This document shows positions 18,397-52,732 of a stretch of DNA of 64,000 nt, one piece after another. The notes beneath the pieces were generated by a model. The model worked only from the letters and a program-made list of their open reading frames with translations. It had not been told where the DNA came from and searched no databases. Made by a program: the position numbers and the translations under genes. The stretch is from positions 62,001 through 126,000 of the IMG/VR virus record IMGVR_UViG_3300033049_000066. One strand, written 5' to 3'. Numbering within the stretch: position 1 is the first letter of the stretch; each line of letters opens with the position of its first letter. This DNA is from a virus.

Positions 18397-21300
18397 ATGT
18401 CGGTTAGGTATAAATTTAAGAGAATAATCTGGCTTTGTGATACAACAGATAAGAAACTTGCGACTGGTCAAGGTCTTCTTTACATGTGGCCTGATCCGAA
18501 TCCGTTAGTACCGCCGAAGTTCGGACTTATTAAGGCAAGTTCATATACTGGTGCAACGCCGGTCGAGGCATTCGAACGACGATATCCAAAATCATCCCAT
18601 AAAATTGATCAAGATAATATCGAACTTTTCGTGTATGAAATTGACGATAACAGGTTACACGATGATAAGATTAGAGCGGAGATCCACAAACGGTATATCC
18701 GTAACCCTGGGAGATTTCCGTTTGATGCTTATGATAAAGTTAATCATGTTGCACCGCAGGGTATTAATAACGAATCTTGCTTAGGTTATAATTACAATGA
18801 ACACAGCGGTGCCCTATTAGGATTAATCAAAGAATATTTCGGGATATTAGTAGTAGCAGACACGAGGGATCCGTGGATCCCTCGTGAAGCAGACCAAGAA
18901 AATACAGCAAAAGAAATCGCAAAAAAGTTAAAAACCAATGCACGGATTGCGTTAAACGGCCATACCGGATATGCGAAAATTATGATTACAATGGTCGCAA
19001 TACACCGGCATATATATCCATCAGATGGAGCATTTATTTTAGCAACTACGCCTGTAATTGACACGCTGTCGGGTATTATTTCGGATGCCACCGATTGGTA
19101 TTATGGTGGCAATCGGTGTAGACGAACTGTAGTCTATGACCGGGAGGCGCTAAATAATGGTAAAACCATTGCTGCAATGCGACAAGAAGCGGATAATGGC
19201 GACATAGTTTTCCTGAGCTTATCAGTTCAGGATATGCGATTTCAAGACAACGCATCATTGGTTATTGATGATAAAGAATTACGAGAAAAATACAAAGATT
19301 TAATTAGTGATGAGATTGAAATTGACCTATGGATAAGAGATGAAGCGCATTTTAACTATGCTGGCCTAGTAACCTCGAAGGTATTTGCTAGTTTGGATGA
19401 TCGGTGTCGATATATTATCGACACTAGCGCTAGCATTAACAAAATCGCTAACAATTACCACCCGGACTCAATAATAGACCGAGGCTTATTTTGGGCGCTT
19501 GCGCATGAAACAGAAAGGAAAACACCTCATATCCATATCGAGTCCCTTTCCGGAATGTGTTACGATACGCTAAGTCCCGACGTTCGTGAGGTATATAACG
19601 AAACCGAAGGATGGAGCCCATCAAAAATGACCGAACTTTTGCCGAACGGTCAGTTTAGAAGTTTAATCGCGATTAACTATATTTTAGAGAAACAGTATAT
19701 TTGCACCGATGAAAAGGAAGAAAATCCTTTGTCAATCATCAATGACATTGACTTACCGTATAAGTGTCGCCGCGTTGGCATGCATCTTTTTCCGGAGGGT
19801 GTCAACGGTACCCCTGCGAATATATACTTAAAAAAACTCGCAGATGATTTAAACGCAATGCCTCAATGGAGTCAGAAAGATGCATACGGGATAGCAAGGG
19901 CAATATTCATAACTCCTTATAATTTTAAAAAACATGCAGCAGCTCATACAAAGTCTAGCAACTCGTATCGCGATGTCATCGACTATCTCATGCAAACGTA
20001 TACTCATGTCGTTATTCTGACCCACAGGCGGTGGATCTTAGGTTCGAATATTCCGCCACTCGGACATGCAGTACAATGGGATAAAATTGTTGATCCATAC
20101 TGTCAAGAACAATTTGCCCCTGGAAGATTATTTAGAATCATGCCATGGAAAACTGCGATTAAGATATATGACCTGGCACCAGGCCACTATCTACAGAATT
20201 CAATATCGGAGATTGCGGCCAGCAGCAGTAAAATATTAAAGCAACCCGATGTTACGATCCTGTTACGTAATATTAGTTTTACAAGATATGAAAAAGGGAT
20301 CGGCATGAGATCTTGGACTCCGGAAGAGGTGTTTCGGCCATATAATAACATGCTTACTCGAAAATCCTTGTCGACGATTGGAGCCAGTATCTTAACAACA
20401 TTATCGTCCGTTGAGATTAATGCGTTGGCTTCGGCTTCATCTTCGTTAAAAAAGAACAAGGTGCTCGGAACAAACGAAAAAACTCAGCTTGTTGCTGAAA
20501 CCGGTACAGAGAAAGCTGCACCGAAGAACCAAAAAAGAAACAAGCAAGGCAAGGCGCCGGTTATGAATGACCGTAAAACATTAGATTTAATTAATAATAT
20601 ACTATTAGAAATCCCGTTTGTTGCTGTATCTACTAACATTTTGTTAATTGATGAAATATTAGATCATAGTATGATTCGGAGGATGTTTAATAGTATCATA
20701 GTTGACACTCTGCTAAATATCATAGCTAATAACCAAATTTTTAAACATGAATTACAGGATAAATTAACAGATATTCATTTAGCATTTGGGATATTGCCAT
20801 TTCTGGATATGCACGACGAGATATTTAAAAATACAACATTAAAAAAAGGTGAAGGCATTGTGTTTGTAAATTGCGAGGCCGCCGAATTTTTTGCAAATGA
20901 ATTTATTCGAGTATTTGCAATACCCAAACATACAACAGAAACAGTAGCAGTAGGAAACGCATTAAGTGGTAGTATACCGTTTTATTTGCAAAAACTGTTG
21001 CCTTGTGCTAATATAATATGTATTGAGAATAGTGATTACTATATTAGTCACTTAAAATCGTTGGGATTTACGTGTATAAAATACAACAACTTAAAGGAAA
21101 ACATGGTAAAAATTAAATACTGGGCCATTAACGCACCTTACCAAAAGGATGCGGGTGGTGTGAATGATAGCGGTAACAAACAGGGCAGCTATTGGTTTGC
21201 TTTCGTCGAAAAGATATTTGCGGTCGGACCCCCGGATGCGAAAATATTTAGTATCTCACCAAAGGCTATATTTGGAGCAGGCAATTATGGAAAATCAGCG

Positions 21301-21924
21301 TCAAAGGTAGCGAAAATATGCAATCATGGAAATTTTGTTCATATATGGCCGGACCTTGGGTCTCGGTTCCCTGGTGTAAGTATTCCAATTTGTGGATATG
21401 CAATAGATTTAGCAAAAACTACACCATATGCGACAGTTGATGGTTACGCTGACACCGATACGGTTATAATTAATAGCGATTACCCCGCCCCTTTTTATTT
21501 TTCTCCGGCTGCTGTTCGTATTATACAAAACTCATGGCAACAACACAAATCATTTGCGAATTTTGTAGAAAACTTGAACGCTAAGGACGACAATGTCGTC
21601 CTTAGAGTTAATGGTGGTCGTTTTAAACTCTGGAAGAAACTGTTTGTTGGGTTTGATCGAGATACCCAAAATAATCTTCAAGGAGCAGTAATCAACGATA
21701 ATGAACTCCCGGGGTATTTGTCAGCTAGTAAATGTAAACTATGGGAATATATCTTTAAAGTAATGGGTTGTGAAAAAGGTAATTCGGTTACTGGCGTATT
21801 CCAGCATTTACCAATAATGGACGATATGACCAGATCATATACTGATCAGGAATGGTTTTCTGCCTTTAACATCGATGAGCAAATGCAAAGAGAGATCGCA
21901 AAATTCCTACGTGAGGTCAAATGA
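18397..21924 (+). CDS. GIY-YIG-like / SF2 helicase / N6-adenine methyltransferase-like fusion
   Basis: 1175 residues in three parts. Residues 1-125 resemble T5orf172/GIY-YIG domains (FGLIKAS, VEAFERRYP, VYEIDDN, then HKRY). Residues about 170-640 are an SF2 helicase with an eroded Walker A (NGHTGYAKI instead of TGxGKT), an intact DEAH (WIRDEAHF) and a motif V/VI-like block (LTHRRWILGSNIPP, FAPGRLFR). Residues about 820-1175 resemble an adenine methyltransferase: motif I is degenerate (VGNALSGSIP), CIENSDYY is motif II-like and NAPYQ stands for NPPY. It resembles restriction or DarB-type antirestriction enzymes. Activity is uncertain. Confidence 0.7.
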   Translation: MSVRYKFKRIIWLCDTTDKKLATGQGLLYMWPDPNPLVPPKFGLIKASSYTGATPVEAFERRYPKSSHKIDQDNIELFVYEIDDNRLHDDKIRAEIHKRYIRNPGRFPFDAYDKVNHVAPQGINNESCLGYNYNEHSGALLGLIKEYFGILVVADTRDPWIPREADQENTAKEIAKKLKTNARIALNGHTGYAKIMITMVAIHRHIYPSDGAFILATTPVIDTLSGIISDATDWYYGGNRCRRTVVYDREALNNGKTIAAMRQEADNGDIVFLSLSVQDMRFQDNASLVIDDKELREKYKDLISDEIEIDLWIRDEAHFNYAGLVTSKVFASLDDRCRYIIDTSASINKIANNYHPDSIIDRGLFWALAHETERKTPHIHIESLSGMCYDTLSPDVREVYNETEGWSPSKMTELLPNGQFRSLIAINYILEKQYICTDEKEENPLSIINDIDLPYKCRRVGMHLFPEGVNGTPANIYLKKLADDLNAMPQWSQKDAYGIARAIFITPYNFKKHAAAHTKSSNSYRDVIDYLMQTYTHVVILTHRRWILGSNIPPLGHAVQWDKIVDPYCQEQFAPGRLFRIMPWKTAIKIYDLAPGHYLQNSISEIAASSSKILKQPDVTILLRNISFTRYEKGIGMRSWTPEEVFRPYNNMLTRKSLSTIGASILTTLSSVEINALASASSSLKKNKVLGTNEKTQLVAETGTEKAAPKNQKRNKQGKAPVMNDRKTLDLINNILLEIPFVAVSTNILLIDEILDHSMIRRMFNSIIVDTLLNIIANNQIFKHELQDKLTDIHLAFGILPFLDMHDEIFKNTTLKKGEGIVFVNCEAAEFFANEFIRVFAIPKHTTETVAVGNALSGSIPFYLQKLLPCANIICIENSDYYISHLKSLGFTCIKYNNLKENMVKIKYWAINAPYQKDAGGVNDSGNKQGSYWFAFVEKIFAVGPPDAKIFSISPKAIFGAGNYGKSASKVAKICNHGNFVHIWPDLGSRFPGVSIPICGYAIDLAKTTPYATVDGYADTDTVIINSDYPAPFYFSPAAVRIIQNSWQQHKSFANFVENLNAKDDNVVLRVNGGRFKLWKKLFVGFDRDTQNNLQGAVINDNELPGYLSASKCKLWEYIFKVMGCEKGNSVTGVFQHLPIMDDMTRSYTDQEWFSAFNIDEQMQREIAKFLREVK
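18861..18886. repeat. perfect 12-bp inverted repeat inside the helicase gene
   Basis: CACGAGGGATCC and its exact complement are separated by two bases. It lies in codons for TRDPWIPRE and is too long for a chance palindrome. Confidence 0.85.
21581..21605. repeat. perfect 12-bp inverted repeat inside the methyltransferase part
   Basis: CTAAGGACGACA, one central A, then the exact complement. It lies in codons for AKDDNVVLR in the same gene as the palindrome at 18861, with unrelated arm sequence. Confidence 0.85.
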
Positions 21925-25672: not shown

Positions 25673-27931
25673 ATGCAAATCAATCCAGAAATCGAGCAGA
25701 TAACCGACTACGCAATTGCTCTCGCAAAACGGCAGCATCAGGAATATGTATTAGTTGAACATTTGCTGGTCGCATTAATAAGTTACGAACCATTTTACAA
25801 TTGTTTAAAAGGTTACGGTGTTAATATCGACGCAATGGTGAATGACATTGAGCTGTACCTGCATAATTTACCGGCAGCTCCGAGCACTGTCGAAAAGCCA
25901 AAACGAACTAACAGCATAGAGCGAGTGTTCAACCGTGCTGTAACGCAGGTTATATTTAGTGGTCGGCGCTTTGTTACTACAATTGATTTATTCTTGGCGA
26001 TCTCGTCTGAGGCAAGCAGCCACGCATCATATTTTATTTTAAAATATGGCGTTGATGACAAGGAGGCGATCGCATCGTACTGGAATGATAACTACAGCGA
26101 TATCGGTGGGAAGATGAGCGATACGCAATCAGACGAGGTGCTTGAAGAACATTGCACAAACGTATCGGCCAAGGCAGCAGCAGGTGAGCTCGAGCCGCTT
26201 ATTGGGCGAGAGGCCGAAGTGAAGGACGCGATAGAAATCCTCGCTAAGAAATTTAAGTCCAATGTGCTGATGGTCGGGGAGCCAGGTGTAGGCAAAACCG
26301 TCATCTTAGAAGGGCTCGCACAGAAAATCAACGCCGACGAAGTGCCGACGTTCATGAAGGGACACACCGTCTGGGAGCTCAACATCGGTGACATGCTCGC
26401 TGGCAGCAAGTACCGAGGAGAATTTGAAGAGAAATTTAAGAAAGTGATCAAGGCCTTGGAAGCGTCGGGCAAGGGTATACTTTTTATCGACGAAGCTCAC
26501 ACTATGAAGGGTGCTGGCAGCGGCGCAGGATCATCGTTGGATTTCGCGAACATGCTGAAGCCGGTGATCACACGCGGCAAGATCAAGGTCGTCGCCTGCA
26601 CCACCTGGGACGAATACTACGAATCCTTCGAGAAAGATAAGGCATTGATGCGCAGATTTTACAAACTAATTGTCGACGAACCAGATCACGACACCACAGT
26701 GAAGATTTTAACGGGCGTGGCGAAACGTCTGTCAGCATATCACAATGTGAAAATCGACCCGAGTGCTATCGCGTCAACCGTGGACTTGAGTACTCGCTAC
26801 ATTCACGACAGATTCAACCCAGACAAATCAATCGACATCTTAGACGCGGCCTGCGCTAAGGAACGTGCGAGTGACAACCACGACACGCTAATTAAAACTG
26901 AACATATCATTCAGCAACTAAGCAAAGTCACCGGCGTACCTACAGAACGTCTAAGCAATGAAAAAAGCAAGACACTATTGACACTGCGTGGCAATATCGA
27001 CAGCAAATTATTCGGCCAAGAAGATGCGGTGGAAGAAGTACTTAATAAAATTTACATCAACTTTGGTGGATTAGCCGAAGAAAATAAACCAGTCGCAAGC
27101 TTCTTGTTTCTTGGGCCAACCGGCACAGGTAAAACCGAGCTAGCTAAGCTAATCAGTGAAAACTTAGACATGGAACTATTACGTTACGATATGTCCGAGT
27201 ACATGGAAAAACATACAGTGGCATCACTTATTGGTGCGCCACCGGGTTATGTCGGCTACGAAGAGTCAGGTGGTGGTGGCAAGCTAATCTCAGATATTAG
27301 CAAACATCCATTCTCTGTACTGTTACTTGACGAAGTTGAGAAAGCTCACCCTGACGTGTTCAACGTGCTGCTGCAGGTCCTGGACGAAGGTAAGATTACT
27401 AGTCGCAGCGGAAAATCAGTGTCACTGCGAAATACAATCGTCATCATGACGTCAAATCTTGGCGCAGCTGACAATGAGAAAAATAACATTGGTTTCACAG
27501 ACCTGGCCCGCAGCGGCGAAGAAGATAAAGCAGTTAAAGAATTCTTTAAACCTGAGTTCCGCAACAGACTTGACGGTATTGCTAAGTTCAAGAAACTTGA
27601 AGATATAAATGTGAAGAAAATTGTTGTCAAGTTCATAAACGAACTAAAAGTCAGCTTGAAATCTAAGGGGATTGCATTCAACGCAACAGAGGCGGCCATC
27701 AATCATATTGCTGATACTGGTTACGATTCAGCACTTGGAGCACGGCCAATTAAACGACAGATCTCAGATGTGTTTAAACAGCCACTAAGTAAACGAATAT
27801 TATTTGAAGAATTAAGCAATTGCACAATTACCGCAGATTATGTCGACGGAGAAATTGTATTTACTGACACATGCGTTCCGGTAATCCCAGAGCTAAATCC
27901 CGAACCACATATTTTAACCCAAGATATTTAA
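25673..27931 (+). CDS. clpA: ClpA-type AAA+ unfoldase
   Basis: 752 residues, the usual ClpA length. The N-domain (about 1-140) starts EIEQITDYAIALAKRQHQEYV. AAA1 has GEPGVGKT near 202 and FIDEAH. AAA2 has GPTGTGKTE near 481 and LLLDEVEKAHPDV. The ClpP-docking loop is preserved as IGF (residues 606-608, within NNIGFTDLA), where bacterial ClpA has IGL. That suggests it can dock host ClpP and redirect proteolysis. Codons are not unusual for the window. The stop is followed by a stem-loop. Confidence 0.93.
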   Translation: MQINPEIEQITDYAIALAKRQHQEYVLVEHLLVALISYEPFYNCLKGYGVNIDAMVNDIELYLHNLPAAPSTVEKPKRTNSIERVFNRAVTQVIFSGRRFVTTIDLFLAISSEASSHASYFILKYGVDDKEAIASYWNDNYSDIGGKMSDTQSDEVLEEHCTNVSAKAAAGELEPLIGREAEVKDAIEILAKKFKSNVLMVGEPGVGKTVILEGLAQKINADEVPTFMKGHTVWELNIGDMLAGSKYRGEFEEKFKKVIKALEASGKGILFIDEAHTMKGAGSGAGSSLDFANMLKPVITRGKIKVVACTTWDEYYESFEKDKALMRRFYKLIVDEPDHDTTVKILTGVAKRLSAYHNVKIDPSAIASTVDLSTRYIHDRFNPDKSIDILDAACAKERASDNHDTLIKTEHIIQQLSKVTGVPTERLSNEKSKTLLTLRGNIDSKLFGQEDAVEEVLNKIYINFGGLAEENKPVASFLFLGPTGTGKTELAKLISENLDMELLRYDMSEYMEKHTVASLIGAPPGYVGYEESGGGGKLISDISKHPFSVLLLDEVEKAHPDVFNVLLQVLDEGKITSRSGKSVSLRNTIVIMTSNLGAADNEKNNIGFTDLARSGEEDKAVKEFFKPEFRNRLDGIAKFKKLEDINVKKIVVKFINELKVSLKSKGIAFNATEAAINHIADTGYDSALGARPIKRQISDVFKQPLSKRILFEELSNCTITADYVDGEIVFTDTCVPVIPELNPEPHILTQDI

Positions 27932-29079: not shown

Positions 29080-32000
29080 ATGAATATCACAGAGCTCGAC
29101 AATTATAAGCTTGCGAAAGCAATTGATTTTAACACTGATTTAAACCCACAGATTTTCGTCAACGACAAAATGCGGCCGGTAGTGCGTGAGAAATTGATGG
29201 AGATAGCAGATCATTTTCGTGAATTCTTAGGCGTACAAAATATTGCCTTAGTAGATATAGAAGTTAGCGGATCCAATGCTGCTTACAGCTACACTCCGCA
29301 TAGCGACATTGACTTACACCTAATCGTAGATTTTACGCAACTTCCAGACAGTGATGTTTACAGAGAGCTATTCGACGCGAAAAAATATCAATATAACAAT
29401 CACCACGATATAAAAATTAAAGGGTACGAAGTTGAATTGTACGTCCAAGACGCAGCACAAAAACATCATTCCCTCGGCAGCTACAGCGTTCTGAATGACA
29501 AGTGGAATAAAATTCCAACAAAGCAACGCGCAAATCTCGACGACGACGCCACACTTTTAAAATATGAAAAATTAAAGGACCTTGCCATCCGCGCCTTGGC
29601 AGCCGATGACAACGAGTACTTAAATAAAGTGCTTGACGTAGTGAAGAAATACAGACAGGCTGGGCTTGATCAGCACGGTGAGTTCGGCCCTGAGAATTTA
29701 GCATTTAAAATGCTTCGCACTGATGGCTACTTTGCTAAGCTATGGACGAAGAAACGCAATCACGTAGATACCGAGCTTAGCCTAGAAACCGCTGTAGAAG
29801 AGCCGGACACCTTAGCCCAAGAATTGATGGCAGAATTTGTCAGCGGCGTATCACCTCAACAAACAGAAAGTATGATCAAGCGCATGTTCAAAGCTCGCTC
29901 AGGTCTGTTTGAAGATTTTGATTACACCTACATTCAAGACAGTGCCGCCAAGCTAGTGACCTTTGAAGCATCGTACGCAGGCAACCTCGGTGCCATGGAA
30001 GTTATGCAATTTTATCGTGACGCCCCAACCGATCACGTGGACCTACTAACGAGACTTATTGCCGCTGACAAAACTAAAGAAGCATGGCAGCTTATACAAA
30101 AAGTAACCGGCACCCAGTTACAAGGACAAGAGTTCAACGAAAGCGAAGCTAAATTTATCGCTGGCATGCGGTCAACCTTTGGTGCTGCCCTAGATGACAC
30201 TAGCGATACAGCCATAATTGAAGCATGGGACGTATCTAACCAGACGCCGGTGCCATCACCAGGCTACAATAAAATTATCGCTATGAGCACGACAGTACTA
30301 GAAGACGGTACTAGATGTACCGATATGGGGCTTGTAGCAAATTTCCTGGTTGCTGAAGCTAGTAGGAATAATCCGAAGGTCTTAGAGTCAAACACAGAAG
30401 AGACAATCACTAATATCGTACAAGAATTATTTAATTCAATGTCCGGGGTGACTCCGGTAGTTGGCAATTCATACGCAATTTTACAAATAATCGCACTAGC
30501 CTCAGGAGAGTCGATAATATTAAATGGGTCACGGACTCCACTTACGATAACAGAAGTAAATCAAAAAGATACCTATGTTGAGTACGTGTTTAAGACACAT
30601 GACGGTATTGTGCGCAAATTCCCAGACGAGTTGCATCTTGGAGCTCGTGTTGACAAAACATTCCTCTTTGAAACACGTGAACAATTAGGATCGATGGAAT
30701 CATTTTTAAGACTTAAAATGTCAAACTGGGCCATTACTGATCGGTTCTTAACTGAGGTAAGTACTGGCATCTGCGAAGACCCCATGACATGGATCCAAGA
30801 CGACGACCAAGATTTTATTAACCCGGTGCCAATTATTACCGACACCGAAGTATTTAACTTCATGGATGAAATAGACAGAACAGCCTATGAGATGTTCCCT
30901 GAGAATAAAGGTTTATCAGGCTCGGCATACGGCATGGCAATGAAAAAAGCTCGGGCAAAAATAGGAACAGTTGAGCAAGTGCCGATGCAGCAAATTGTTT
31001 CAACAGAAAAATATTTAAAGACAAGTCAACTTGCCGCAATTTTAAATGGCAAAGCAAAATCATCAAGTGACTATCCTATATTATATAAGCAAGGTAACAC
31101 ATATATCGCAGGTGATGGCAACCACCGCATTGCGGCACAGTTTATTAAACAACAACCTACAATTAAAGCCTTGGTCCTAGACGGCGCAAAAATACTGGAT
31201 GAAAATTTCATCGTCAATGAACAAGACATCGACTTAGTGGAAGAGATCCGGGCAGAATTTGAAGTACATAAAAATATCAAAGAGAATTTCATTGTCAACG
31301 AACAAGGTCGCATTGTTAAAGGATCGAATACAACAGATGACGTTGGCGTAGACGAAATTAAAATCCAAGCTAAAAAGATGGGCTTCAACGTATCAATTGA
31401 TGGCGTACCTGAAATTCCAAAGAACGGTGTACCTAAGATAATTAATTATACTGCTAAGATAGAAAACGCACATGCATCCGCATTGCGAGAGTTTCTAAAT
31501 AGTAATCAGTCATTGCTTGAATCACAAGACGATTTTAAATCAGTAAGAGAATTTACAAATTCGTACAAAACTAGTCCAATTATCGGTGAGAAATATGTGT
31601 ACACATCATTGATGATTACTCCGGCGATGGGATTTATAAACCTTGCACATACCGAAGAGGCAGAGTTAATTAAAATCAAAGCTGGTTATGTTTATTTTCG
31701 ATTAGCTAGCGGCAAGATTGCACAATATCCAAAAAACGACTCCGATTTAAATTCATCACTACAGCAAATATTATTTTTTAAAACCCTGACCGAGTTTGAT
31801 CAGTTTAAGGCCGCACTTATTTTAAAATTCGGACAATGGCGTATAACCCACAAGTTACTTGAAGATGCAGAACCTAAAATATTCAAATCAGCCGCGGTAC
31901 GCGAGATGAAGTGGGAAGACTCTGCTCACATTGAGTACATGGATGATCGCCTTGCTTGGGTCGAATCACAAATTGTCGAAGGCGTTACGTTGTTTGATTC

Positions 32001-34197
32001 AAACAGCAACGCTAATACTGATTATTTTTTAAATATCAATAGTGACGCTCCAGTAATAAACAAAAAATTTATACTAGCCTTCCAAGCTCTTGTTAATAAT
32101 AGAATAATTATTAGCGAAGTACATACCGGTAGATTAATCGACTTTAATGACACCGAGTATAAAATTAAACTTGACAGTGGCAAAATTCTAACGTACCCGG
32201 ATTGTAGCAGCTCTAAAAAGATGCTTACTAAATCATTCTTGTTTGACTCCAATGACAAATATAATAAGTTCCGTACAATAATCCAACTTAAATTTAAAAA
32301 GACACTGCCGCAGATTAGTCTCGCAGCGAGTAGCATACAGCAAGACAACTTAACTGAATCGTTTCTTACAGAACTCAACATGGCCCCGGGTAATTTACAG
32401 AAGGCCGTAAATAAAATACTAAGTTCCGCTGATCCGCACGTTGGTGTTGAGTTTGAAGTAATTATGCCCGCCGACGCTGAGATGAATCCGGAAATCAACC
32501 TCCGCACAACACGGCAAGATATCTTAGATTTCTTTACGTACGACGACGAAGAATCATTTGAGAACTTTAATGATGTTTACCAAGAATGGCTACAAGAACA
32601 AGAGTCGGCGTGGTCCGAACAAAAAACAAATGAAATACTAAATGATCCGACTGAGGAGTACGACGACAAGCGTGAGTTCATGGTTGACTATACCCTGAGC
32701 GACAATGCCACCTCGCAGCTAAAAAGTATTTACAAAAAGTTAAAAATTAAAGACGACTTAGAAATTACAGATGAAATTGCGGAGTCTGTGCTTGACATGG
32801 CAGAACTCGCATATAAAGATTACGGATCCGCAGATAACTGGCCGACATCGGACGGTATGAGTCCGTACGTATTATTGTATCATGAAATATTCGTTGTTGA
32901 TAAAGAAGACGCTACAGAAAAGTTTAAAGAGATGGCCACTGAGGAATTTTATTCTACCGAAATGCTAGTAGACGAAGATGAGTACTCCATTGGTGCGTGG
33001 CTTCAGTCACTTCAGATATCAAGTATGGGTGACCTATATAGAGAGTTTGATTACGACTTAACGTGGACAGGTGGTACTAACGTTAGTGCCAATTTTGATG
33101 AAGAAATCGCCTATCAAATAGCAGATGAGCTAGGAAATCTTATTGGTGAGGACGTAACAGTTGCTGGTGAAGATAGCGACGATAGCGACAACGCGCCGGA
33201 CACGAGCGTGAACTGGGTTATTACAAATGACTCGTCAATTCGACCTAATAACGATGATGATTCTGCTCTTGAAATTATTACGCCAGTAATGGATTATTCT
33301 ACCGGGATAAAAACACTCAATAAGGTCTTTGATTTTCTAAGTGAGAAAAATGCTTACGCAAATGACTCTACAGGCCTGCACATTAATGTAAGTCTAGGAA
33401 ATATAGATCACACAAAATTAAATTACACTAAATTAATCGTTATGCTCGGCGATTCACATATATTAAAACAGTACAATAGAGAATTCAACGAATACGCTGT
33501 AGACGCATTGACTAATTTAAGTACGATGCTAGATGCAAAGCAAGGATACGATCAAGATAAGAAAGCTAAAGCCGTGTCCTTTGCAAATATGATGGGCAAA
33601 ATGAAAAGTGATTTTAACAATGCTGTAGCAAGCTCATTTGACAAAATTGATTTCGGCAAGTACAATTCAATCGGGCTCAAAGATAATTATATTGAATTTA
33701 GATCCGGCGGCGGCGCTAATTATCTTGACGACTTTGGAGATATTGTCGGAATGATTAACCGGTTCGTTGTAGCGTACGCAGTAGCAGCTGACCCAGACGC
33801 ATATAAGAATGAGTACGGTAAGAAATTATATAAACTTGCTACAAATGTCGGTCTAAGTCCGGCCTCACCTACAGCAATGCAATTATTTGCGAAATTTAGT
33901 TCCGGCATGATGACAAAGGAAGAGCTTATCCGGCAGGTTAAGATGTCAAAGACCATCTCAGACGAGCCGGTGGACACTGGTGATCGTTTAAGAACTGCGA
34001 AGAGCACCGCGACTGAAGCATTCATAGAAATTTCTGACAAGTGGGATCTATCAGCCGTCGAGACAGACAGACTGTGGAACAACGCGATTGCTATCGAGCT
34101 CGAGAGACTAGCAGATTTAAGAAATTATCTCAGGCCACCACGAGCTGCAAAAGCAGCATACACCAATTTAATGAACGATAAAGGATACTATGAATGA
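29080..34197 (+). CDS. 1705-aa multidomain (polyvalent-type) protein: NTase, ParB-like, amidoligase-like
   Basis: Domains in order: residues 1-235, a MNT/Pol-beta-type nucleotidyltransferase (SGSNAAYSYTPHSDIDLHL, the two Asp near 75-77; GYEVELYVQD). About 630-710, a ParB/sulfiredoxin-like domain (SSDYPILYKQGNTYIAGDG, then NHRIAA). Three degenerate ~100-residue repeats (about 459-556, 832-927, 989-1084) share VVGNSY/IIGEKY, a YPxx turn and K.FLF/ILFFK. About 1115-1560, an amidoligase-like ATP-grasp domain (VGVEFEV, TGLHINVS, YIEFRSGGG). Such multi-enzyme proteins can be carried in virions and injected. Late promoter and neighbours support packaging. Confidence 0.8.
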   Translation: MNITELDNYKLAKAIDFNTDLNPQIFVNDKMRPVVREKLMEIADHFREFLGVQNIALVDIEVSGSNAAYSYTPHSDIDLHLIVDFTQLPDSDVYRELFDAKKYQYNNHHDIKIKGYEVELYVQDAAQKHHSLGSYSVLNDKWNKIPTKQRANLDDDATLLKYEKLKDLAIRALAADDNEYLNKVLDVVKKYRQAGLDQHGEFGPENLAFKMLRTDGYFAKLWTKKRNHVDTELSLETAVEEPDTLAQELMAEFVSGVSPQQTESMIKRMFKARSGLFEDFDYTYIQDSAAKLVTFEASYAGNLGAMEVMQFYRDAPTDHVDLLTRLIAADKTKEAWQLIQKVTGTQLQGQEFNESEAKFIAGMRSTFGAALDDTSDTAIIEAWDVSNQTPVPSPGYNKIIAMSTTVLEDGTRCTDMGLVANFLVAEASRNNPKVLESNTEETITNIVQELFNSMSGVTPVVGNSYAILQIIALASGESIILNGSRTPLTITEVNQKDTYVEYVFKTHDGIVRKFPDELHLGARVDKTFLFETREQLGSMESFLRLKMSNWAITDRFLTEVSTGICEDPMTWIQDDDQDFINPVPIITDTEVFNFMDEIDRTAYEMFPENKGLSGSAYGMAMKKARAKIGTVEQVPMQQIVSTEKYLKTSQLAAILNGKAKSSSDYPILYKQGNTYIAGDGNHRIAAQFIKQQPTIKALVLDGAKILDENFIVNEQDIDLVEEIRAEFEVHKNIKENFIVNEQGRIVKGSNTTDDVGVDEIKIQAKKMGFNVSIDGVPEIPKNGVPKIINYTAKIENAHASALREFLNSNQSLLESQDDFKSVREFTNSYKTSPIIGEKYVYTSLMITPAMGFINLAHTEEAELIKIKAGYVYFRLASGKIAQYPKNDSDLNSSLQQILFFKTLTEFDQFKAALILKFGQWRITHKLLEDAEPKIFKSAAVREMKWEDSAHIEYMDDRLAWVESQIVEGVTLFDSNSNANTDYFLNINSDAPVINKKFILAFQALVNNRIIISEVHTGRLIDFNDTEYKIKLDSGKILTYPDCSSSKKMLTKSFLFDSNDKYNKFRTIIQLKFKKTLPQISLAASSIQQDNLTESFLTELNMAPGNLQKAVNKILSSADPHVGVEFEVIMPADAEMNPEINLRTTRQDILDFFTYDDEESFENFNDVYQEWLQEQESAWSEQKTNEILNDPTEEYDDKREFMVDYTLSDNATSQLKSIYKKLKIKDDLEITDEIAESVLDMAELAYKDYGSADNWPTSDGMSPYVLLYHEIFVVDKEDATEKFKEMATEEFYSTEMLVDEDEYSIGAWLQSLQISSMGDLYREFDYDLTWTGGTNVSANFDEEIAYQIADELGNLIGEDVTVAGEDSDDSDNAPDTSVNWVITNDSSIRPNNDDDSALEIITPVMDYSTGIKTLNKVFDFLSEKNAYANDSTGLHINVSLGNIDHTKLNYTKLIVMLGDSHILKQYNREFNEYAVDALTNLSTMLDAKQGYDQDKKAKAVSFANMMGKMKSDFNNAVASSFDKIDFGKYNSIGLKDNYIEFRSGGGANYLDDFGDIVGMINRFVVAYAVAADPDAYKNEYGKKLYKLATNVGLSPASPTAMQLFAKFSSGMMTKEELIRQVKMSKTISDEPVDTGDRLRTAKSTATEAFIEISDKWDLSAVETDRLWNNAIAIELERLADLRNYLRPPRAAKAAYTNLMNDKGYYE

Positions 34198-34790
34198 AAC
34201 CGCAAGAATTTATAACAGAAGCCCGAAGCGATAGTATTATATTGATTGACTTTCAGCCAGCGTATCAAAGCGAGGATTTCGGCTATGACGATGCCATCGA
34301 CCAGGCTGTTAACTACATTAATAAAAAACAGCCATCCGTGACTGCTTTTTATAACGGACAGGATGTAGGCATTGAGGATACTCCCTCAGAGGTTCTTTGG
34401 CATTACATGGAACATGGACTAAACGAAGATCTCGGACATTTATTTACGTTCAAAGAGAAGTCATACGCTTGGTTAAGATCATGGATAGACGAAGGGGTTG
34501 ACGAAGCATTGATTATTAAAGTTATTCGGTACTTGGTTATGAATGACATGAATGATAGTCGAAGCATAGAAGATGAAGACTGGTTAAAACTAGTTGGTGA
34601 AGATTTTGACTTCTACGAAGATAGAGAGATGGGAATTTTTATACCTGAGATTAATATTGCTACATTACAAACACTAAACAAATCACTACTTGGTGGAGGT
34701 GGTCAACATGAATGCCTTAAGGAAATGCAGGTGCTAATGAATGCGTTTAATATTAAATATAAATTAGTACAAGAATGGATTTACGGTTAA
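34194..34790 (+). CDS. putative injected internal head protein with capsid-targeting leader
   Basis: 198 residues, overlapping the previous gene by ATGA. The first ten residues, MKPQEFITEA, match the T4 capsid-targeting sequence of internal proteins (MKTYQEFIAE followed by A) and contain the I-x-E/A cleavage site of the T4 gp21 prohead protease. By analogy the protein should enter the prohead, lose the leader after Glu9, and be injected with DNA. The mature part begins ARSDSIILIDFQPAYQSEDF and is acidic and mainly helical; its action in the host is unknown. Confidence 0.75.
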   Translation: MKPQEFITEARSDSIILIDFQPAYQSEDFGYDDAIDQAVNYINKKQPSVTAFYNGQDVGIEDTPSEVLWHYMEHGLNEDLGHLFTFKEKSYAWLRSWIDEGVDEALIIKVIRYLVMNDMNDSRSIEDEDWLKLVGEDFDFYEDREMGIFIPEINIATLQTLNKSLLGGGGQHECLKEMQVLMNAFNIKYKLVQEWIYG

Positions 34791-36030: not shown

Positions 36031-37635
36031 ATGAAATTACACGAAATGTTCAACGGTGACGTCAAAGAAAACAAAGAAGCCGACGTTAAGCCAACGTACC
36101 TACAAGATGAAATCCTCGAACGTTTAAAGGCGTCAGGTGGTAGCGTGTACACAGGTAACGCAAGATTGGTAAAAGACGGCGTTACAGCGATCCTAGCAAT
36201 CAACGGTCAACGCAGATTCGCAATCTTCCCAGATGGCACGTACAAAGCAAGTAAAAAATTCATTGACTTTCAACGTGATGGTTGGGAATTAGAAATTGCT
36301 AACTTTGAAAGCGTAGAAGAAGCCAAAGGAAAAAGTCCAAAGTCTGATATTCGTGTAGACAATGCCGGTAACAAGAAATGGTACAAAGATGGTGAATTAC
36401 ACAGAGAAGACGGACCAGCAATTGAGTTCGCGGATGGTGACCGGTGGTGGTACAAGAACGGTAAACAGCACCGAGATGATGGGCCAGCTGTTGAACAGGT
36501 AAATTCCACAAAGGGCTGGTACATAAATGGTAAGTTACACAGAGAAGATGGCCCAGCAATTGAATACGAAAATGGTGATCAATATTGGTACATAAATGGC
36601 AAATTACATAGAGAAGATGGCCCGGCTGTTGAACGTGCGGATGGCAGTAAAGAGTGGTACTTAAATGGCGTAAAACAAGAACCTAACGTTTCAGAAGAAA
36701 GAGAAGTGCGCACTGGCGTAGAAGAAGCCAAAGGAAAAAGTCCAAAGTCTGATATTCGTGTAGACAAAGATGGTAACAAAAGATGGTACGTAAATGGCGT
36801 ATTACATCGAGAAGATGGCCCTGCTATTGAACTCGCAGTTGGCTCCAAATTTTGGTTCATAAATGGCAAAAGACACAGAGAAGATGGCCCTGCTATTGAA
36901 CTCGCGAATGGCGACCGCCATTGGTACAAAAACGGCAAAAGACACAGAGATGATGGGCCGGCTATTGAGTACGCGGAAGGTGACCGCCATTGGTACATAA
37001 ATGGTGAAAGACACAAAGAAGATGGGCCAGCTGCAGAACAAGCAAATGGCTCCAAATTTTGGTTCGTACATGGCAAAAAACACAGAGAAGATGGCCCTGC
37101 TATTGAACTCGCAGATGGTGAAAAACAGTGGTTCATAAATGACAAAAAACACAGAGAAGATGGGCCAGCCGTTATACAAAAAGCCGGCTCCAAATTTTGG
37201 TACATAAATGGCGTAAAACAAGAACGTAACGTCTCTGAAGAAATAGTTCCTTACACTAAAAATGGTGATACCGATCAAGGCGAATATATTGATGATGAAA
37301 CTGGTCAAATATATGACCAAAATGAAATTGAGACAGTACACGGCAAGAATCGAGAAAAACAACACCACGCTATTAATAACTCAAATCGATCCGAAGATGA
37401 TTACGTGGCCGAGCCTGAAGTTACTCCGAAAAATCCCTTAGCCGTTAGCATGTTTGGCGATATCGCAGCAGGTGGTGGTGATCCAATTGATCATTTAATG
37501 ACCTCACATAACATGACGATGGATCAGGTTGATGCACTAGCACGTGAGCAAGGGTATACTGATGCTTATGAATGGGCAGAAAGTTTTATTGAAATGGAAT
37601 CAATTCTTAGGAACGCAGGTATTCAAAAATCATGA
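36031..37635 (+). CDS. MORN-like repeat protein, late
   Basis: 534 residues. After a ~110-residue N-terminal domain (MKLHEMFNGDV leader), two blocks of tandem ~22-residue repeats follow (about 115-213 and 251-390). The consensus is WYxNGKxHREDGPAxExAxG, which resembles MORN-type/YwqK-like beta-hairpin repeats. Each block is introduced by VEEAKGKSPKSDIRVD and closed by NGVKQEPNVSEE or a variant. The C-terminal 140 residues are different (DHLMTSHNMTMDQVDALAR). MORN-like repeats bind lipids or proteins or form scaffolds. A virion-delivered effector or structural filler are both possible. Confidence 0.75.
   Translation: MKLHEMFNGDVKENKEADVKPTYLQDEILERLKASGGSVYTGNARLVKDGVTAILAINGQRRFAIFPDGTYKASKKFIDFQRDGWELEIANFESVEEAKGKSPKSDIRVDNAGNKKWYKDGELHREDGPAIEFADGDRWWYKNGKQHRDDGPAVEQVNSTKGWYINGKLHREDGPAIEYENGDQYWYINGKLHREDGPAVERADGSKEWYLNGVKQEPNVSEEREVRTGVEEAKGKSPKSDIRVDKDGNKRWYVNGVLHREDGPAIELAVGSKFWFINGKRHREDGPAIELANGDRHWYKNGKRHRDDGPAIEYAEGDRHWYINGERHKEDGPAAEQANGSKFWFVHGKKHREDGPAIELADGEKQWFINDKKHREDGPAVIQKAGSKFWYINGVKQERNVSEEIVPYTKNGDTDQGEYIDDETGQIYDQNEIETVHGKNREKQHHAINNSNRSEDDYVAEPEVTPKNPLAVSMFGDIAAGGGDPIDHLMTSHNMTMDQVDALAREQGYTDAYEWAESFIEMESILRNAGIQKS
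36370..37245 (+). repeat. tandem 66-bp coding repeats (MORN-like), two blocks
   Basis: About eleven copies of a 66-base unit, many identical over 20 or more bases, in two blocks separated by a repeated VEEAKGKSPKSDIRVD segment (36310 and 36720). Whole-block duplication plus unit-level expansion is apparent. Confidence 0.9.
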
Positions 37636-52658: not shown

Positions 52659-52732
52659 GTCTGCGTAGCTAAGAGGCCTAGCAAGGGATTTTAAATCTCT
52701 GCACGTGGGTTCGACCCCCACCGCAGGCACCA
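52659..52732 (+). tRNA. tRNA with anticodon UUA (putative ochre suppressor), CCA encoded
   Basis: 74 bases forming a full class I cloverleaf: acceptor 52659-52665 with 52722-52728 (7 bp, one G-U), D stem GCTA/TAGC, anticodon stem AGGGA/TCTCT with loop TTTTAAA, 4-base variable region, perfect T stem GTGGG/CCCAC with loop TTCGACC, discriminator A and CCA at 52730-52732. The five-bp anticodon stem places UUA at 34-36, which reads UAA. It lacks the long variable arm of tRNA-Leu. Shifting the loop to read UUU (Lys) or UAA (Leu) breaks two stem pairs. Confidence 0.85.

Follow-up and report, generated by a model that had tools for sequence, protein, structure and literature searches.

The 1705-aa protein P0001, encoded by a jumbo phage with a T4-type set of head genes, is probably a head-targeted precursor polyprotein, which the prohead protease would cut into separate cargo proteins that are ejected into the host. 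We analyzed a window of 64,000 nucleotides (positions 62001-126000 in a virus record 293,278 bases long). The open reading frame of P0001 is intact, starts with ATG on the plus strand and has exactly the coordinates and the length of 1705 residues that the first-pass annotation had reported (Table 1). The head genes lie outside the window, at record positions of about 243.8-250.6 kb. They include genes for a portal (phrog_213, E = 2.9e-104), the head maturation protease gp21 (phrog_207, E = 1.6e-55; record 247032-247664) and the major capsid protein gp23 (phrog_138, E = 5e-99), with a phrog_10922 protein occupying the scaffold position between gp21 and gp23.

P0001 had also been described as a late gene, which its surroundings do not bear out: some 150 kb separate it from the head genes, its neighbors are a ClpA-like protease/cytidylyltransferase on one side and a DNA polymerase on the other, and its genome shows no enrichment of T4 late-promoter octamers. 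The ClpA-like ATP-dependent protease (window 25673-27931, plus strand; phrog_4871, 1.5e-234) is 5' of P0001 and is in the same place in a sister phage, L018.

Table 1. Features of P0001 and the gene downstream. Positions are those of the window; a slash marks the predicted cleavage position after Glu.
Feature	Residues (aa)	Position	Strand	Basis or remark
Modular cargo polyprotein P0001	1705 aa	29080..34197	+	predicted
N-terminus M-N-I-T-E/L	[IL]xE at 3-5	29080..29094	+	conserved; resembles T4 Alt ITE-6
NTase module, pol-beta type	1-354	29080..30141	+	phrog_36119, motif
Uncharacterized spacer module, ends NFLVAE/A	355-426	30142..30357	+	motif-only junction
Repeat copy A, ends RFLTE/VS	454-559	30439..30756	+	leave-one-out HMM
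ParB/Srx-like domain (plausible), GDGNHR at 678-683	~600-712	30877..31215	+	phrog_17560, motif
Two NFIVNE/ copies	ending 714 and 741	31207..31302	+	second precedes module stand-alone in L021
Small module (VKGSNTTDDVG...IQAKKMGFNVSIDGVPEI), ends SLLE/S	742-814	31303..31521	+	common to L018, L019, stand-alone L021
Repeat copy B, then KLLE/DA	829-929	31564..31866	+	leave-one-out HMM; predicted beta-beta-beta-alpha
Repeat copy C, then NLTE/ and SFLTE/	986-1083	32035..32328	+	leave-one-out HMM; predicted beta-beta-beta-alpha
Junction NLTE/SFLTE/LNM preceding amidoligase	1090-1098	32347..32373	+	relatives aligned there: [LIM]xE
Amidoligase (GS-like) module	1099-1650	32374..34029	+	PF12224, conserved residues, predicted structure
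Downstream cargo gene, leader MKPQEFITE/A		34194..34790	+	T4-type leader; body fused behind DLAE/ in L050

Domains and repeats of P0001

The first-pass annotation had listed three domain types, two of which stand. Residues 13-235 match the NTase profile phrog_36119 (E = 1.9e-37), and the features of a pol-beta NTase (G[GS]...[DE]h[DE]h plus a third carboxylate) are present and conserved as GSN...SDIDLH (SDIDLH at aa 75-80) and E119; P0001 also has VELYV. The Pfam NTP_transf_2 match is below cut-off in P0001 (E = 0.018), and 21 of 32 family members match it at E-values up to 0.01. Cyanophages, Lak phages and Maribacter phages have single-domain NTase homologs (~33-38% identity). The amidoligase matches Pfam PF12224 (Amidoligase_2) with 37.9 bits against a cut-off of 22 (E = 2.4e-9) and has the conserved residues E1124, E1126, E1398, H1434, E1539 and R1541; the E, H and EFR columns are invariant or almost so in an alignment of 28 sequences. 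Loss of the catalytic residues in relatives had been named beforehand as a point against the earlier interpretation, and they are kept: SDIDLH is intact in 70 of 70 non-redundant family members, and the amidoligase E, H and R positions are conserved as just described.

The third domain is only plausibly ParB/Srx-like and is below threshold, because P0001 has no match to Pfam ParB. Its sole profile match is phrog_17560, which has no named function (E = 4.6e-5), and its DGNHR-type motif ([DE]G[NHYT]HR) recurs in about 20 similar module copies of related loci. Structure prediction, suggested earlier as a check, succeeded for the amidoligase, whose AlphaFold model matches models of phage amidoligases with E-values down to 3.5e-24; when aa 742-1705 were compared with PDB folds, glutamine synthetases alone matched, and weakly (E of at least 0.4). 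The model of aa 427-741 is poor (pLDDT 44), so we make no fold claim for the ParB-like part or for repeat copy A, which looks beta-beta-beta-alpha like the other two copies, but in a model of insufficient quality to be trusted.

The three ~100-aa repeat copies reported earlier were confirmed by a leave-one-out procedure tested against ~900 decoy ORFs, in which each was recovered by an HMM made from the other copies and one from locus L068 (E = 1e-8 to 2e-14). The copies are mutually divergent, and their alignment is too divergent for use as a search query. The proposal that the repeat is a linker or packaging module is not supported. It has no match in annotated phages and only one further copy (in L068) among 80 loci, for which reason we rejected a phage-wide packaging role, and each copy in P0001 lies between [LIV]xE sites just as a cargo module does. 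The modules are separated by a protease-type site.

Relatives of the NTase module

Searching IMG/VR with an NTase alignment yielded 509 relatives, of which we fetched 80 loci; these gave 70 non-redundant proteins of 236-2060 aa, including the window's own and a few that end at contig ends. IMG/VR searches with the whole of P0001, or with its ParB piece, found no relatives. The N-terminal NTase is constant in the 70 members (start M[ND][IL]xELDSY...) and the remainder is swapped, with modules that include amidoligase, zincin, ART and lysozyme-like types among others. The zincin motif HExxH is present in 37 of the 70 members, 22 of which also have an amidoligase, and is absent from P0001. Pfam matches found in single members include ART-PolyVal, Glyco_hydro_19, SLT and LysM. 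In the sister phage L018 the genes are arranged as they are around P0001 (ClpA-like, cytidylyltransferase, NTase protein, leader genes, DNA polymerase), but the NTase protein of L018 is only 527 aa long, and the L019 protein has another module order, from NTase through a small GVG-type module to amidoligase. Because of these differences P0001 is, to judge from its sequence relationships, part of a family that rearranges rapidly. A gp21 gene is present in each of the 11 relatives of more than 300 kb that were searched; the 7 relatives without a gp21 match are smaller records and probably fragments.

Leaders, junctions and candidate cleavage sites

In phage T4, gp21 removes the capsid-targeting sequence (CTS) of the internal proteins IPII and IPIII, both of which start MKTYQEFIAE/A, and the 65-residue propeptide of gp23. 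Asp at CTS residue 10 prevents this processing in T4. Residues 4 and 7 of the IPIII CTS serve targeting and residues 8 and 10 processing, and the gp21 cleavage motif is L/I-X-E, with the cut after Glu (PMC9026906). The T4 protein Alt is cleaved at ITE-6 and LTE-619 (PMC5694885).

Leaders of this type are common around P0001 and its relatives. At the family loci, M[KR]x(1-3)[EDQ]F[ILV]xE occurs at the start of 103 plus-strand ORFs versus 5 minus-strand ORFs (counts are ORF-based), and no ORF matches when the Glu is replaced by K. A search for leaders with a degenerate DNA pattern, which was probably too strict, gave no matches. In 42 of 75 relatives, leader-bearing genes start no more than 2.5 kb downstream. 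The earlier observation of neighbors with head-targeting leaders holds for the gene right after P0001, at 34194 (MKPQEFITE), and several further genes of this genome carry the leader; a gene starting MKSTEFITE lies directly between portal and gp21 (record 245764). P0001 itself lacks the IP-type leader MxxxEFIxE, and thus an N-terminal CTS of the T4 kind, but its N-terminus (MNITELDNYKL) has an L/I-x-E site, ITE at aa 3-5, whose E5 has a conservation of at least 90% across the family, with Q or D in some relatives.

Modules that stand alone behind a leader M[RK]xxEF[IVL]xE/ in one place are fused within long proteins in others. We defined the mature module as everything that follows the leader Glu, sought the same modules inside longer proteins, and counted as independent only those contexts with unrelated upstream sequences. 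In 80 of 131 independent contexts [LIVM]xE stands exactly before the fused module (positions P3-P1), and in 104 of 131 it is within one residue, compared with control counts of 0-9 at offsets -30 to -1 and 16 at +1 (control mean 2.3). Leaving out the most frequent module gives 56 of 105, and leaving out both that module and the amidoligase, the two largest groups, gives 44 of 74 (control mean 1.4). For 9 of the 33 modules, no internal copy has a site within one residue. As an example, the stand-alone MRAHEFVTE/NFADG (L026) recurs in fused form behind DMTE/, ALSE/, TVAE/ and GVAE/, and about twenty more.

The leader Phe (P4, equivalent to CTS residue 7) is present in 40 of 97 N-terminal but only 7 of 125 internal copies (p = 9e-11), whereas P3 and P1 show no significant difference in frequency between N-terminal leaders and internal junctions. 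As read from these residues, the internal junctions keep the processing half of the leader and have lost its targeting half, and their motif is the T4 gp21 prohead-protease motif. Loss of Phe, with P3 and P1 staying at leader frequency, points to selection for processing; the loss of P4/P5 with retention of P3/P1 likewise disfavors shared leader DNA as a pure recombination point. The most frequently fused cargo unit is the module 'NFADG[KR]VKGKSRPG' (~57 aa; L026:14757-14957 and about 25 other places), which has no match among annotated phages.

Within P0001, the comparison supports junctions 354, 741 and 1098. The junctions at 426, 559, 714, 814, 928, 967 and 1650 are motif-only and weak, because three-residue motifs are common and P0001 has dozens of the hydrophobic-x-E type. 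The motif F[ILV]x(1-2)E occurs 7 times versus 2.4 (p = 0.009), and one of the seven sites (FLFE, aa 528-531) falls within a repeat; since this enrichment is only modest, we place the weight on the comparative test. At junction 354, P0001 has EFNE/S where L018 and L019 have F[AV]xE/GVGLIRKG, with a different module next. Junction 741 reads NFIVNE/QGRIVKGSN, against MKVSEIINE/GVGRI in the stand-alone L021 protein, the Glu being off by one in the BLAST register. In the model, the linker leading up to site 1098 is of low confidence and the amidoligase fold starts right after it. FLTE, at aa 556-559 and 1095-1098, is the tetrapeptide of T4 gp23 residues 62-65.

Stand-alone amidoligases carry leaders in L038 (MRFREFIRE/S) and L069 (MRLREFIVE/T), and in Agrobacterium phage Atu_ph07 (L004, 7614-9116) the start is MRWQDISSKKLTE/LKM; in these three and L084 a leader or leader-like start is followed by LxE/[VL]xM. 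Atu_ph07 is a cultured phage, and its amidoligase gene is near the genes for a portal and for a gp21-like protein, the latter bearing the annotation 'prohead core protein'.

We suggest that P0001 would be made as a single chain and would enter the prohead core by means of its constant N-terminal part, the NTase module. The phage's own gp21-type prohead protease would cut it after [LIV]xE sites between modules, freeing the NTase, the repeat-domain proteins, the ParB-like protein and the amidoligase inside the head, where they would be retained until they are ejected, together with the DNA, into the new host, their site of action. There the NTase may nucleotidylate a host molecule, the amidoligase may make amide bonds and the ParB-like protein may work as a nuclease/NTPase. 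The sequences themselves show the modules, the leader-bearing neighbors, gp21 in this phage and its relatives, and [LIVM]xE kept where modules are fused in many relatives; we infer packaging, cutting, ejection and biochemical activities, with the post-ejection functions deduced from the families to which the modules belong. Injected proteins that counter restriction or modify the host have precedents in T4 IPI* and Alt.

Alternative readings and known systems

P0001 could instead be a classical polyvalent protein, packaged and injected uncut, with its [LIV]xE junctions being relics of leader-gene fusion. Its architecture and module types agree with Iyer et al. 2017, and the N4 virion RNAP is packaged without cleavage, but we consider this unlikely: relics should decay evenly, yet Phe has been lost and P3 and P1 remain at leader frequency. 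It is quite improbable that P0001 acts in the infected cell only, expressed with the replication genes, as no virion component and with the leader genes as unrelated neighbors. The ClpA-like protease, cytidylyltransferase and DNA polymerase beside it, the same order in the sister phage, and the cyanophage single-domain NTases that also adjoin replication genes would all suit such a role, but leader genes closely follow in 42 of 75 relatives and the same modules bear head leaders elsewhere. A very small probability attaches to P0001 being a component of the scaffold core, like gp22 or gp67, whose fragments are discarded and have no effector function. Although gp21 also degrades T4 core proteins (PMC9958956), the enzymatic residues of the NTase and amidoligase are conserved, the gene content is highly variable where a scaffold is conserved, and the genome has its own scaffold-position gene (phrog_10922).

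The cargo-polyprotein reading has parallels in several known systems. T4 IPI, IPII and IPIII have diverse bodies behind a constant leader (MKTYQEFIAE/A, versus MRAQEFIxE/ in P0001's neighbors and relatives) and a gp21-type protease, and IPI* is an injected anti-restriction protein; they are single small proteins, whereas the P0001 family fuses modules and has only the processing half at junctions. Alt, a packaged and injected ADP-ribosyltransferase, shares the short ITE-type N-terminus and is also processed by gp21 near its C-terminus (LTE-619), but it loses terminal propeptides only, whereas cuts in P0001 would part several folded modules. In phiKZ and SPN3US, a gp21-related protease cuts inner-body and ejection proteins C-terminal to Glu before DNA packaging; there the motif is S/A-x-E or A-x-E, long propeptides are removed, and the proteins are not modular polyproteins.

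Polyvalent proteins (Iyer et al. 2017; P1 DarB/DdrB, N4 vRNAP, MuF fusions) likewise combine disparate domains, including pol-beta NTase and ParB-like ones. P0001 has at least two (NTase and amidoligase, with the ParB-like one weaker) in a genome with a portal/terminase-type head, and its relatives add zincin (37 of 70) and, in one, ART-PolyVal. The earlier label 'polyvalent' is supported in part: it fits the disparate enzymatic domains, the leader-bearing neighbors, the catalytic residues retained in relatives and the ART-PolyVal, zincin and lysozyme-type modules of relatives, whereas the role given to the repeat is not supported. For polyvalent proteins, processing by an in-chain zincin has been proposed, whereas the sites in P0001 fit the prohead protease and it has no zincin; that domain is frequent but not universal among them, and its absence is not disqualifying.

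On balance we lean towards a wider view, in which large T4-related phages have a general cargo-polyprotein system and any module flanked by [LIV]xE could be fused, co-targeted, freed by the protease and injected. If so, module shuffling at [LIV]xE sites would bring injected effectors together in new combinations, the phage equivalent of viral polyproteins, and one targeting signal would explain how many effectors are loaded into large-phage heads. A leader or [LIV]xE junction would be a sequence rule for candidate injected proteins and their mature boundaries, and many uncharacterized modules would be probable injected anti-defense or host-takeover proteins. The T4 CTS would be split into targeting and processing halves in a way that is visible in evolution and testable. 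Polyvalent proteins and T4 internal proteins are already known; in the literature we covered, which is incomplete and leaves priority unproven but includes a 2026 jumbo-phage review, we found no report of head-cargo polyproteins that are modular and have prohead-protease sites at their shuffled junctions.

The window has several other features. A 1175-aa protein at 18397-21924 (plus strand) is helicase-like by eye only. A tRNA-like gene at 52659-52732 (plus strand), with CCA encoded and an anticodon TTA that would read UAA, is possibly an ochre suppressor, although 24 of 35 ORFs >150 aa end in TAA, more than in any other stop codon. The gene at 36031-37635 (plus strand) has a leader-like N-terminus, MKLHEMFNGDVKE, and ~10 near-identical units around 'W[YF]xNGKxHREDGPAIE', and the antisense ORFs 36579-37205 and 36802-37368 resemble shadows of these repeats.
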